Assembly (NCBI GenBank): GCA_913048125.1
Contig: CAJWWL010000006.1
Span: forward strand, 1 to 33,226
Source of the DNA: an uncultured Opitutia bacterium
Lineage (GTDB): Bacteria > Verrucomicrobiota > Verrucomicrobiia > Opitutales > JABJCN01
Direction of reading: 5' to 3'
DNA length: 33,226 nt
Below are positions 23,276 to 28,407 of this stretch, one piece after another (within the stretch, counting starts at the first letter, position 1; each line of letters starts with the position of its first letter). The position numbers were made by a program, and so were the translations under genes. A model generated the notes under the pieces. The model was not told the DNA's origin, did not search any database, and was given only the letters and a program-made list of their open reading frames with translations.

Positions 23276-26200
23276 CTACACACTCGAGCACACGTAAATG
23301 CGAGATCCAGCGTCAATTTGTGCGGCTGATGCATCCAGTAGTGCGGGTGCGTCTACGACTTGGCCTTCTCCAATGGTAGCGCGGCCAGCCACCAAGATGG
23401 CAACCTTTCCGTAAAGATCTTGGCGAGCAGACTCTTCAACGCTTTCGACTTTTCCTTCCGAGATCCAGCGGCGAAGCTCTAGTTGAGTCCAGTCTCGATA
23501 AGGTTCCTTGGCTGCGAGAATGTTTTCAGCGAAACGTGCACCAGCAGTGCGCCAGAGACTTTCGGTCAGCTCTTTGGATTCACTCATGATGGACTGCATG
23601 TCATCAGAAGAAAGCCAGACTGCAGTTACTCCAGTATCCGCCATCACATTGGCCGTTCGTGGGATGCCTGCTAGTACGGCCATTTCTCCAATAACACTAC
23701 CTCGACCAAGGATATCGATAACGCGATCTTCAATGGCAACTCGGACACTTCCACGAGTGATCACAATGAGTCCATCACCTGGATCTCCTTGGTTCATTAG
23801 CTTATCATCTGTCTGGTAGGTCTTTTCCTGAGCTGCACTGATAATCTTCTCAATTACAGAGGTCGGCATACCTTGTAGCCAGGTGACTTCGCGTAGAACT
23901 TCCTGCGAAGTGGGAACTTTTAGTTTAAGCGGGTTGTCCATGATGGACTTCATGCGTTCCTCCACATCGTCAAGCATGCGGGTCGCCTCATCTGCCTCGA
24001 TGGCTCCCTGCTTCTTCATCTTTTTGATGGTAGCTTGTTCGTGATTTAAGATGGAGCGTACCGCTTGCTTCGTCTCGATGCTGACCGTAATGTCAGGGTA
24101 CTTCTCCTGCATGTCCTTGATGTAACCAAGAGCCTCTAAGCGGTTGGAGTCGATTTCCTTGAGAAGGATACTTTTAATGTCTTCATCTTGTACGCTGTCG
24201 TCGATGCTGAGACTCAGCGAATCGACCAACTTCTTCACTTCGTCTTGAGCAACAACAAATCCCTTTGCTGCATCATAAGAAGCTGCTAGGCGATCGTGGA
24301 AGTAGCCGCCGAGGAAAGGAACTCCTTGCAGTGCATCCAGCGGAACTCCCAAGAAAGAAGGGGAGCCACACACATCCTTAAGGTAGTTTCTCTCCGTAAG
24401 TGGAGCAGTGCCGTTAAGATCAAGAACTTCACTGACATTTCCAGAGAGAGCATTGACAGCCTGAGGTCCAAGTAGCCCAGCACCAAATTGGTTCCAGTAG
24501 CTGGCTTTTTCTTTTTCGAGAAGTCTTCTTCTTGCTTCTGCGAGGGTGTCAATATTTGCCTTTTCTGCTTCCGAGACATGAGGAACATCCATTTCTGGAA
24601 GGTAGTTGCGCACTCGACCCCAGCTGGCACCACTCAAGAATCTATCGTTCTTAAGTAAATCCATTTCGTTTTCTGCGCTTCGTTCTACAGTCTGTGCGGC
24701 CTGTCCCATCATAAGGGCTTTGACTGCAGGAATCTTGGTGAGACCAAGTCCGTTAACCACCAACTTTACCGTGGTTGCATTAACGAGAAGTGTAAGTAGC
24801 ACGATTCCAGAAACAAAGAAGAGAAATTGGTCCCGGATAGTTTCTGGAATGGGGTTAGGTCCGGAGTAGTTACCTACGTGAAGGTGATCGTTAGCGATGA
24901 CAAGCGCAAGTGCTAGACCGATGGCTCCCCTGAGAGCTCCCCACCATACCACGATTGCATCCTTTCCTGGGAGTCCATAGCCGGCAGATTTCATCCGCAA
25001 GTAATAGACGCCCATATTTGCCGCACGAACGACATGTATGATGACGTAGATGATACCGAGCATCAACAGATTAGTGCCAAGGTTGTCCAGAGCTACGCGC
25101 TGGGCTATGACAACCCCAACGATAATAAATATCAGCACATTGCAGATGAACGCCGCAAATTCGATGAATTCATGGAGGAAATGCTCTACCTCAGGGCTGA
25201 TTCGAGTTCGGCCAAAGCTCGCCATGACAACACCGAGTGCTACGAGACCAAGCACACCTGATACTCCCATGAAGGTCTCAGCAGCATAGAACGTAAGATA
25301 AGCACCTACGAGTATGATACCGATCTCAATCTCGGGGTCGTTGAACACACGTTTGACCCAGGCGGCAGTAGTTAAGCCAATGAGACCGCCCACGACTGCT
25401 CCAGCCGCACCAATCTTTATGAAACCGAGTGCCGCGCTGCCTAAGCTCCAAGTCTGAGCACCCACTATAACAAGCAGGAGTACGACAAATACGACTATGG
25501 CAGTACCATCATTGAGCAATGACTCGCCTTCAATTAAGGTGCCTAGCTTCTTGCTCGCCCCTAGTTCTTTAAGCAGGGCAACAACAGCGACTGGGTCTGT
25601 TGCACTTGCAATACCGCCAAAGAGCATACAGAGGAACCATGCCATTGCCTCTGGCGATGGGTAGGTGAAGTTCTCTTTGTATAAGCCCAAACTTCGATGA
25701 ACTTCCTCGAGGCTAAAGTTTTTCCACGCCTCCAAACCAAGATTAGGTGCTTGTACGCAAAGCCACAGTAATCCACCAGTCATGAGGGTGGCGGTGATGA
25801 TCCCCGGACCTGCCATCCAGAAGGCATTCTCAACAGACTTCTTGAAGGTGTGCATATCAAGAGCAAATGCGGCTTCAAAGATGAGAACTGGCAAGAAAAC
25901 GTAAAGAATAAGGTGGGGGTCCATCTGTGCGCCCCAGTGAATTGCGCCTATTATGTATTCTATAATTTTGGCGAAAAACCCTTTCTCTTCATGGCCACCG
26001 TGAGAAGCTGAATGGGTATTATCGGGGTGTGCGTGGGCATGATGGTCATGTGATTGACCATGACCTTCTGCACTAGGCGCATGAGAGGTATGGGTTACAG
26101 GAGTTGGCTCAGGTTGTGGCGGGGGTGTTACTGCTGTAACTGGGGCTCCTGGTGCTGGAATTGCAGCATATGCAGCTTGCAGACCTGGGTATGTAGATTC

Positions 26201-26707
26201 GTAGAAATCCCAAGCATCCTTTTCGTCGAGCAGATTGCGAAGCGCCTGCATATGCTCGGTGTCAGTCTGGAGCAGTTTCGGATCTTTTGGATTACGAGAC
26301 TGCAGATGCGCCTTGAAATCATTTATTAGCTTTAGGATTACAGGGCTAATTTGGGCTGTTCCCGCAGAGCCTTCTGGTCCATGACTGCCATGTCCCGTAT
26401 CATGGGAGGGCTCAGCATGATGGCCGGTATCGTGATGGGATTCTGTCTGCGGGTGACCTGCGTGTCCATGACCATGACCTTCATTGCTCGCGTCCTCCTT
26501 CGGCCGAGTCAATGCGCCCATGACCAAGCCAATGATTAGTAGAAATACCGTGAAGGGAAGGGGTATGCCGGGAAAGATCTTTAAGAAGTGCTTTGATGCG
26601 GCACCGATCGTAAGGCATAGAATCAGAAAAAGTAGTCCGTGTAGGTAGTTGAGACCGCCATCGGCGGAAGCAAGTACAGGCAGGTTAGTGAGCATTAGGT
26701 CTGTCAT
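23276..26707 (-). CDS. CPA1 Na+/H+ antiporter with His-rich insertion and cyclic-nucleotide-binding domain
   Basis: A 1143-residue membrane protein of the NhaP/NHE (CPA1) family. Two helices (about 21-64) precede a 185-residue insertion with two histidine-rich stretches (about 77-110 and 205-240, about 11 His each). The transport domain follows: FLPVLIFEAAF (271-281), SATDPVAVVALLKELGA (368-384), EGESLLNDGTAIVV (393-406) with the conserved Asn399-Asp400, and WWGALRGAIGLAL. A long cytoplasmic region ends in a cyclic-nucleotide-binding domain (about 955-1045) whose phosphate cassette IGEMAVLAGIPRTANV (from 1006) keeps the Gly-Glu and Arg residues. The layout and length recall plant SOS1 (about 1146 residues). 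It should exchange cytoplasmic Na+ for H+, perhaps under cyclic-nucleotide control. A good promoter lies upstream at 26753-26781. Confidence 0.92.
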   Translation of the reverse strand: MTDLMLTNLPVLASADGGLNYLHGLLFLILCLTIGAASKHFLKIFPGIPLPFTVFLLIIGLVMGALTRPKEDASNEGHGHGHAGHPQTESHHDTGHHAEPSHDTGHGSHGPEGSAGTAQISPVILKLINDFKAHLQSRNPKDPKLLQTDTEHMQALRNLLDEKDAWDFYESTYPGLQAAYAAIPAPGAPVTAVTPPPQPEPTPVTHTSHAPSAEGHGQSHDHHAHAHPDNTHSASHGGHEEKGFFAKIIEYIIGAIHWGAQMDPHLILYVFLPVLIFEAAFALDMHTFKKSVENAFWMAGPGIITATLMTGGLLWLCVQAPNLGLEAWKNFSLEEVHRSLGLYKENFTYPSPEAMAWFLCMLFGGIASATDPVAVVALLKELGASKKLGTLIEGESLLNDGTAIVVFVVLLLVIVGAQTWSLGSAALGFIKIGAAGAVVGGLIGLTTAAWVKRVFNDPEIEIGIILVGAYLTFYAAETFMGVSGVLGLVALGVVMASFGRTRISPEVEHFLHEFIEFAAFICNVLIFIIVGVVIAQRVALDNLGTNLLMLGIIYVIIHVVRAANMGVYYLRMKSAGYGLPGKDAIVVWWGALRGAIGLALALVIANDHLHVGNYSGPNPIPETIRDQFLFFVSGIVLLTLLVNATTVKLVVNGLGLTKIPAVKALMMGQAAQTVERSAENEMDLLKNDRFLSGASWGRVRNYLPEMDVPHVSEAEKANIDTLAEARRRLLEKEKASYWNQFGAGLLGPQAVNALSGNVSEVLDLNGTAPLTERNYLKDVCGSPSFLGVPLDALQGVPFLGGYFHDRLAASYDAAKGFVVAQDEVKKLVDSLSLSIDDSVQDEDIKSILLKEIDSNRLEALGYIKDMQEKYPDITVSIETKQAVRSILNHEQATIKKMKKQGAIEADEATRMLDDVEERMKSIMDNPLKLKVPTSQEVLREVTWLQGMPTSVIEKIISAAQEKTYQTDDKLMNQGDPGDGLIVITRGSVRVAIEDRVIDILGRGSVIGEMAVLAGIPRTANVMADTGVTAVWLSSDDMQSIMSESKELTESLWRTAGARFAENILAAKEPYRDWTQLELRRWISEGKVESVEESARQDLYGKVAILVAGRATIGEGQVVDAPALLDASAAQIDAGSRIYVCSSV

Positions 26708-26788: not shown

Positions 26789-27184
26789 TTAGCGTGACTG
26801 AATACGAATTTTACTTAAGCCATGAGTCCTACATTGGTCCATGACCCAAGTGATTTTTTTGAGTGGAGTCTCTTGATCGGCGATAAGCAGCACTTGTTTA
26901 GTGTTAGCTTGAGTGCCTGCAAATTTAATAGTTTCTGAGAATTGTTCCTGAGAAACTGATGTGTTGTTGTAAAGAAGGTTACCAAGTGAGTCAACGGACA
27001 CGATTATTCGGTCCTCCAGTTGGTTTGAACCAGCCGTTTTGATTTCCGGGAGTACGAGGTTCAGAGTGCGTACCTGCCGGAATTGCATCGTGATCAAAAA
27101 GAAAAAGAGTATGACCGTGAGCACATCTAGCAGGGGCAATATATTTATGCCTGGTTTTTTGCGTTTTCTACGCAGGGGATGCAT
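26789..27184 (-). CDS. exbD: ExbD/TolR-family biopolymer transport protein
   Basis: A 131-residue single-helix protein. After a basic cytoplasmic start (RRKRKKPG) comes INILPLLDVLTVILFFFLIT with Asp20, the equivalent of the essential proton-carrying Asp25 of E. coli ExbD. A small periplasmic domain follows. With the adjacent ExbB it should form a proton-driven motor that energises TonB- or Tol-type partners across the envelope. Its ATG lies three bases after the ExbB stop, so the pair is tightly coupled. No tonB or tolA gene is beside this pair, so its mechanical partner is unknown; it is unlike the second pair at 31546-32752. Confidence 0.9.
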   Translation of the reverse strand: MHPLRRKRKKPGINILPLLDVLTVILFFFLITMQFRQVRTLNLVLPEIKTAGSNQLEDRIIVSVDSLGNLLYNNTSVSQEQFSETIKFAGTQANTKQVLLIADQETPLKKITWVMDQCRTHGLSKIRIQSR

Positions 27185-27187
27185 GGG

Positions 27188-27769
27188 TCAAACTTCTGTG
27201 TTGGATTCAAGCAACCGTTCAACGCCAGCATCAATACGAGCGGCAAGCACATCTACGCGACGGTCGAGCCAGGTTCCCGCAACTAAGGCTGGGATAGCAA
27301 CGCTGAGACCTATGATAGTGGTGCTCAGGGCTAGAGATATACCTTGCCCGAAGTCTCCGGTGTCGGTGGCGACGCCTGCGCCGTCGAATCCTGTAAAAAC
27401 CCGGACTAGTCCAGTAACGGTACCAAGAAGTCCAAGTAGTGGCGCAACCGCGACCACGATGTCTAAAAGAAACAATCCGCGTTCAAGTCTGCTGACTTCG
27501 AGTCGCGCATAGGCCTTCAATCCATCTGGATCAGTCCCTCCCTCACAATAGAATTGGAGGATACGACCCCCTGAAGATTTAGGATCGACCTCATTACCGC
27601 TCCATTCACCTCGGACAATAGCCTCAAACAGACTTTGTGGAAATACTTTGACGAAACAAAGGGCGATTACTCTCTCAATAGTGACAGCAAGCCCCAGCAC
27701 AGAACAGGCAAGAAGTGGGTAGATAAAAACCCCAGACGCCTTCAGGATCTGAGATAGGTCCAGTTCCAT
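27188..27769 (-). CDS. exbB: MotA/TolQ/ExbB proton channel family protein
   Basis: A 193-residue protein with three likely membrane helices: FIYPLLACSVLGLAVTIERV (about 15-34), LDIVVAVAPLLGLLGTVTGL (about 102-121) and ISLALSTTIIGLSVAIPALV (about 143-162). The APLLGLLGTVTGLVRVF and LALSTTIIGLSVAIPA segments are ExbB/TolQ hallmarks, the latter containing the conserved Thr residues of the proton path. It is shorter than E. coli ExbB (244) but normal for stand-alone ExbB proteins. It lies between leuD (38 bases upstream) and exbD. Whether it serves TonB or another trans-envelope partner cannot be told. Confidence 0.92.
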   Translation of the reverse strand: MELDLSQILKASGVFIYPLLACSVLGLAVTIERVIALCFVKVFPQSLFEAIVRGEWSGNEVDPKSSGGRILQFYCEGGTDPDGLKAYARLEVSRLERGLFLLDIVVAVAPLLGLLGTVTGLVRVFTGFDGAGVATDTGDFGQGISLALSTTIIGLSVAIPALVAGTWLDRRVDVLAARIDAGVERLLESNTEV

Positions 27770-27807
27770 TTACGTTCTGGTTTGCTTAGGTTGCAGTTGT
27801 TTTCTTT

Positions 27808-28407
27808 CTAGGAGGAATAGGAGAGAGCCTGGTCAACCGATTTTGTTGCATCAGCAGACTGAAGTAGCTCAGCGATAGGATCCCAGCGACCCTCTGTAAG
27901 TGCCTGTTGCGCACTGGATGGTAGGGATGCAGGGAAGGCATGGTTCCCTGCTCTAATTTCCAGATGCTCTATATCTAGGGTCACTTCAAGGCTTGGGTCA
28001 GCATTGATAAGATCTGTAAGTTCACGGCGGACATCCTCTGTAGCAGTCATACATGGAATGCCTAGCGTGGTCGAATTGCCGAAGAATATTTCCGCAAAAC
28101 TCCCTGCAACAATTCCTCGAATACCCCAATGGTAAAGGGATTGAGGGGCATGTTCGCGCGAACTACCGCAACCGAAGTTCACACCGCTGACAAGGATAGA
28201 TGCATTGGCGCGTTCAGGTTCGTCAAATGGATGTGTACGACCGTCTTTACTTGCAAAATCGCGCTCGTCATAGAATGCGAATTCGCCAAGGCCGTCGAAA
28301 GTGACGCACTTCATGAATCGAGCGGGAATGATACGATCGGTATCAATATCGTTGCCAGATACGGCTAGTGCTGTGCCGGTTACAGAGGAAATTTTCTCGA
28401 GCGACAT
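27808..28407 (-). CDS. leuD: 3-isopropylmalate dehydratase small subunit
   Basis: LeuD is the swivelling small subunit of isopropylmalate isomerase, which interconverts 2- and 3-isopropylmalate in leucine synthesis with the Fe-S-carrying LeuC. The 199-residue length is typical of the bacterial form. NDIDTDRIIPARF (19-31) and NFGCGSSREHAPQ (77-89) are diagnostic, the latter the substrate-recognition loop. leuC is not in the window, so the two subunits are either split or leuC lies elsewhere. It shares a strand with exbB/exbD 38 bases downstream. A related homoaconitase small subunit is less likely at this length. Confidence 0.93.
   Translation of the reverse strand: MSLEKISSVTGTALAVSGNDIDTDRIIPARFMKCVTFDGLGEFAFYDERDFASKDGRTHPFDEPERANASILVSGVNFGCGSSREHAPQSLYHWGIRGIVAGSFAEIFFGNSTTLGIPCMTATEDVRRELTDLINADPSLEVTLDIEHLEIRAGNHAFPASLPSSAQQALTEGRWDPIAELLQSADATKSVDQALSYSS

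Follow-up and report, generated by a model that had tools for sequence, protein, structure and literature searches.

The sea-urchin sperm exchanger SLC9C1 (sNHE; PDB 8pcz, 8otq, 8u6z) contains a signal-like N-terminus with a His-rich tail, an Na+/H+ exchanger, a voltage-sensing domain (VSD), coupling helices, a cyclic nucleotide-binding domain (CNBD) with a phosphate cassette, and a C-terminal region. His71 and His73 of the tail contact Asp134 in TM2'-TM3' of the neighboring protomer at the extracellular dimer interface. In the presence of phosphatidic acid, His73, His132, and Asp129 shift to new positions around it, and a connection with extracellular pH regulation is suggested by the authors (PMC10620092). 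The first 70 residues are unresolved and a possible cap density is seen above the dimer (PMC10620091). Plant SOS1/NHX7 (PDB 7y3e, 8iwo) lacks the VSD. Its domain is described as CNB-like (CNBLD), and it has a long autoinhibitory, phosphorylated C-terminus. Endosomal NHE9 (NHE6/7/9) carries an extra domain between TM2 and TM3, on the non-cytoplasmic side and over the dimer interface, that clasps the dimer, binds PIP2, and raises the apparent Na+ affinity; such a loop domain is missing from bacterial NapA and NhaP according to the authors (PMC11953442). According to a 2020 review of plant antiporters, bacteria lack the combination of an exchanger with a CNBD, which first appeared in algae (PMC7573149); the only non-metazoan examples named in a comparative study are SOS1-like (PMC6660944).

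We analyzed a 33,226-nucleotide stretch of contig CAJWWL010000006.1 (the window), which belongs to an Opitutales-type (Verrucomicrobiota) genome. It encodes an exchanger of this kind. The earlier note had read the gene as a CPA1 exchanger with a His-rich insert and a CNBD, and this was borne out: the ORF is intact and both domains have Pfam matches (Na_H_Exchanger, E 1.7e-51; CNBD, E 1.3e-14). Its features are as follows, with helices and strands taken from an AlphaFold2 (AF2) model that was built from 67 sequences and is good overall (mean pLDDT 78).

23276..26707, minus strand, SLC9C1/SOS1-type Na+/H+ exchanger with CNBD (intact ORF, 1143 aa)
26576..26653, minus strand, TM1 (aa 19-44, AF2 helix)
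26510..26554, minus strand, TM2 (aa 52-66, AF2 helix)
25976..26506, minus strand, TM2-TM3 insert (aa 68-244, 24 His; predicted periplasmic by homology with the SOS1 and SLC9C1 structures)
26372..26500, minus strand, His patch 1 (aa 70-112, 11 His; predicted disordered, pLDDT ~30)
26162..26353, minus strand, middle module of the insert (aa 119-182; three predicted helices, AF2)
25979..26098, minus strand, His patch 2 (aa 204-243; predicted disordered, AF2)
25913..25921, minus strand, D263-P264-H265 at the start of TM3 (alignment to SLC9C1, PMC10620092)
24746..25924, minus strand, rest of the exchanger domain (aa 262-654; Pfam PF00999 at 254-652, AF2)
25508..25513, minus strand, ND ion-binding motif N399-D400 (SLC9C1 Asn237-Asp238, PMC10620092; invariant in 67/67)
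23888..24727, minus strand, cytoplasmic helical coupling region without a voltage-sensing domain (aa 661-940)
23579..23824, minus strand, cyclic nucleotide-binding domain (aa 962-1043; PF00027, E 1.3e-14)
23639..23707, minus strand, phosphate-binding cassette GRGSVIGEMAVLAGIPRTANVMA (aa 1001-1023)
23279..23485, minus strand, C-terminal beta-rich domain (aa 1075-1143; AF2 strands 1086-1141)

The closest relative is Opitutia bacterium SI073_bin56 (G002), which has a syntenic exchanger copy that is 76% identical. The exchanger strand also carries exbD, exbB, and leuD upstream (window 26789-28407), in an order kept in G002; these genes and the exchanger are possibly one transcript. On the other side of the exchanger gene, both genomes have a gene for a 1271-aa protein.

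SLC9C1 and SOS1 were the top Foldseek matches. The likeness to the solved structures is full-length and colinear, with the coupling region included (SLC9C1, E ~1e-117; SOS1, E ~1e-101). The window protein shares with SLC9C1 the exchanger, the coupling helices, the CNBD with its cassette, and the C-terminal region. The SLC9C1 VSD (~585-798) is skipped in the alignment and has no counterpart; we looked for a hydrophobic segment after aa 654 and found none, so that the S1-S4 helices of SLC9C1 proper are lacking. SOS1, with the same domain order as the window protein and likewise no VSD, gave the best query-normalized TM-scores (0.63). The two differ in that the window protein keeps the canonical cassette Glu and Arg, and in that SOS1 lacks the His-rich insert, whereas the window protein lacks the long autoinhibitory C-terminus with its SOS2 phosphorylation site. 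The similarity ends near residue 860 of ~1150 in SOS1, and the window protein stops ~60 residues further on. Since SOS1 has no such loop and a longer C-terminus, the match in length to SOS1 that had been pointed out earlier (1143 vs. 1146) is coincidental.

The ND motif, the TDP sequence, and the conserved Arg residues of CPA1 exchangers are all present. The ion-site residues D371, E395, N399, D400, R561, and R593, which are those named for SLC9C1 (PMC10620092), are invariant in the 67 homologs. Sequence alone cannot tell the substrate, and an NCBIfam K+/H+ antiporter model gives a weak match, far below its cut-off. A transition metal or K+ could then be carried in place of Na+, with the loop gathering the substrate, but we consider this very improbable given that the ND motif and salt-bridge residues are as in the Na+/H+ exchanger SLC9C1 and do not vary across the set. 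The phosphate cassette retains the Gly-Glu pair and the Arg, as had been read from the sequence (G1007-E1008, R1017). Across the homologs the Glu is kept in 61/67 and the Arg in 54/67. Because these residues are kept and class III nucleotidyl cyclase domains are present in the window genome (G000), cyclic-nucleotide control of the exchanger is plausible.

The insert was placed correctly by the earlier note between the second helix and the next transmembrane helix (TM2-TM3), although its length is 177 aa rather than 185. It does not precede the antiporter core, as had been thought, but interrupts the exchanger itself, separating two helices of the dimerization domain. The two patches of about 11 His each were confirmed by counting: the insert (aa 68-244) has 24 His, of which 11 are in aa 70-112, two in the middle, and 11 in aa 200-245. 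His makes up a fraction of 0.136 of the insert and 0.014 of the remaining protein (binomial P = 4e-15 at a clade background of 0.0165). Up to 11 His fall within 40 residues, while none of 121 flanking proteins of the Opitutales loci exceeds five. Both patches are disordered in the AF2 model (pLDDT ~30), with three moderate-confidence helices between them. A slippage array or a local low-complexity artifact can be set aside, as we saw no tandem repeat in the window DNA, the His codons are mixed (18 CAT and 7 CAC), and the architecture recurs in the syntenic relative. Over the aligned residues, the loops of G000 and G002 share only 38% identity, yet have 24 and 20 His, and individual His positions and their spacing are poorly conserved among loops.

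The middle module (~60 residues) recurs in two other G002 genes, L031:2247-2912(-) and L032:2228-3745(+). These stand-alone genes encode a signal-like N-terminus, the module, a linker with some His, and a TM helix, an arrangement that suggests a periplasmic module and would fit the topology expected of the loop. They match each other over 562 bp of DNA. Between the exchanger and the stand-alone genes, DNA similarity is 73-76% over ~230 bp and covers the module only; because it stops at the module edges, the module must have been copied between genes. Pfam gives no significant hit to the module, and a model of it in isolation, built from two sequences, is helical at low confidence (pLDDT 63, pTM 0.37). 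A possible homology to the loop of another exchanger family (f12, L067) was borderline (shuffle p 0.02-0.05) and was dropped.

The insert contains five HxH and three HH motifs with Asp/Glu neighbors, as would be expected of a buffer for Zn2+, Ni2+, or Cu2+ or of a metal-regulated switch on an exchanger that still moves Na+ and H+. The His-rich loops of ZnT7 and PA4063 are reported to bind Zn. We think this reading of the loop somewhat unlikely, because the His spacing is not conserved and metal-transport and metal-regulator genes are absent among the neighbors examined (leuD-exbB-exbD here, complex I in the f2 family described below). The zinc role raised in the earlier note is not favored, given an ion site of the ND-motif Na+/H+ kind and the absence of metal genes nearby. 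ZnT7 also has its His-rich loop between membrane helices, but it is of a different transporter family with a different metal site. By analogy, the SLC9C1 dimer interface on the extracellular side and the NHE9 loop between TM2 and TM3 are closer precedents than zinc transporters. We sought a precedent for a His-rich loop in Na+/H+ antiporters in the openly accessible literature and found none.

The alignment of 67 homologs comprises 19 Opitutales and 48 Bacteroidota/Chlorobiota sequences, and the His-rich segment occupies a different position in each group. In all 19 Opitutales, the TM2-TM3 loop is 40-197 aa long with 4-25 His, and the N-terminus before TM1 is 18-34 aa long with 0-2 His; the window protein itself has ~18 residues ahead of TM1 and no His tail. 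The commonest Opitutales loops (family f2) have only 4-5 His, and the L126 and L134 loops have repeat-like units. In the 48 Bacteroidota/Chlorobiota proteins, the TM2-TM3 loop is 23-32 aa with 0-3 His. Nearly all of these have an N-terminal extension, usually with a signal-peptide-like start, and a His/Asp/Glu-rich tail adjoining TM1 (median 5 His in the last 50 residues). With one truncated row left out, a density of 4 or more His per 40 aa is found in 41/47 tails, compared with 13/303 neighboring proteins (first 100 residues). Short N-tails with 5-6 His occur in the Chlorobiota-type proteins L121 and L153, which lack a clear signal peptide (e.g., MEHGAEVAHQAAEHAVSS precedes TM1); the tail may be old in the exchanger family. 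Exceptions with few tail His and no loop His are L116, L119, and family f52. Sea-urchin SLC9C1 resembles the Bacteroidota homologs in its signal-like N-terminus and His-rich tail: it has 8 His in the ~34 residues before TM1, and its tail aligns with a Bacteroidota tail. The window clade differs from SLC9C1 in being bacterial, in having its His segment in the loop rather than the N-tail, and in having no voltage sensor.

Two other observations concern family f2. In these exchangers (e.g., L033:2572-5853(-) and L035:2672-5872(+)), a further ~90-110 aa are inserted immediately ahead of the last TM helix; this second insertion is predicted to be periplasmic and is missing in the window protein (site aa 604-622). 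At f2 loci (L124-L141, e.g., L136:1685-9870), nuoB-nuoC-nuoD-nuoE follow directly after the exchanger gene on the same strand in the 14 loci with sequence there, and it is preceded by a conserved gene whose ~315-aa product has a signal-like N-terminus and matches no Pfam family. The gene order suggests that the f2 exchanger is coupled to complex I.

Whether the loop is conserved or a local expansion, as the earlier note had put it, has a divided answer. The loop differs in sequence and length among members, and that of Bacteroidota is short and poor in His; nevertheless, almost every member has a His-rich periplasmic face, at one position or the other. The segments could be neutral, disordered linkers of low complexity that tolerate His and have no specific function, as the predicted disorder, the 40-197 aa range in length, the poor positional conservation, and the L126/L134 units would allow. 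We find this unlikely, as His-richness in 19/19 Opitutales loops and 41/47 tails is far above background, the window DNA lacks a tandem repeat, and the sea-urchin tail is similar.

The architecture is well supported, and computation also shows the conserved ion site and cassette as well as the His segments and the two places where they occur. The view that an exchanger, a CNBD that is likely ligand-capable, and a His-rich segment of the periplasmic face are combined in one protein is supported. SLC9C1 Asp134 corresponds to D263 (Asp in 63/67) and His136 to H265 (67/67), and the window insert lies between TM2 and TM3 as the NHE9 domain does. The NHE9 loop is ~60 residues, a Lys-rich beta-hairpin that binds PI(3,5)P2, whereas the window insert is 177 residues, is His-rich, and contains predicted helices, and we saw no sequence similarity between them. 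Based on the SLC9C1 contact between the N-tail His and Asp134, the conservation of D263/H265, and the NHE9 clasp, we propose that the window gene encodes a dimeric, electroneutral SLC9C1/SOS1-type Na+/H+ exchanger, gated by its CNBD, with a titratable His-rich clasp over the dimer interface, and we give this proposal about an even chance of being correct. A cAMP/cGMP-binding domain would gate the exchanger from the cytoplasm. The TM2-TM3 loop, periplasmic by homology, would cover the dimer interface by analogy with SLC9C1 and NHE9. The charge of the loop would change when its His are protonated in an acidic periplasm or when a metal or anionic lipid binds; the scaffold helices would then be held more tightly or more loosely, and local access of Na+ and H+ would be adjusted. 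The loop may thus sense pH, metal, or lipid. In most Bacteroidota and in sea-urchin SLC9C1, the N-tail would carry the equivalent segment and reach the same spot. In the tree, the Opitutales form one clade beside marine Flavobacteriales-type sequences (SH-aLRT 96), and therefore the change from tail to loop happened once. This is a counterweight to the clasp reading, as the alternative placement rests on that single switch. The members with few His (L116, L119, f52), the 4-5 His of the f2 loops, the weak conservation of individual His positions, and the disorder of both patches in the AF2 model also count against it. The same SH-aLRT value is the one result that might point to gene transfer into the Opitutales.

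The dozens of bacterial exchanger-CNBD members contradict the statement of absence from bacteria (PMC7573149). Our comparison was with openly accessible papers, and such proteins may already be annotated in databases. More tentatively, and less likely than not, the clasp could be a conserved principle of extracellular sensing, in which a His-rich segment from either the N-tail or the TM2-TM3 loop would sit at the dimer interface, in common with the sea-urchin sperm exchanger, and pH, metal, or lipid outside and cyclic nucleotide inside would jointly gate one bacterial transporter. The bacterial family bears on the origin of SOS1 and SLC9C1. Its VSD-free members are test proteins for the gating of a transporter by a CNBD, and they offer a route to the role of the His-rich extracellular tail of SLC9C1, most of which is not resolved in the SLC9C1 structures.
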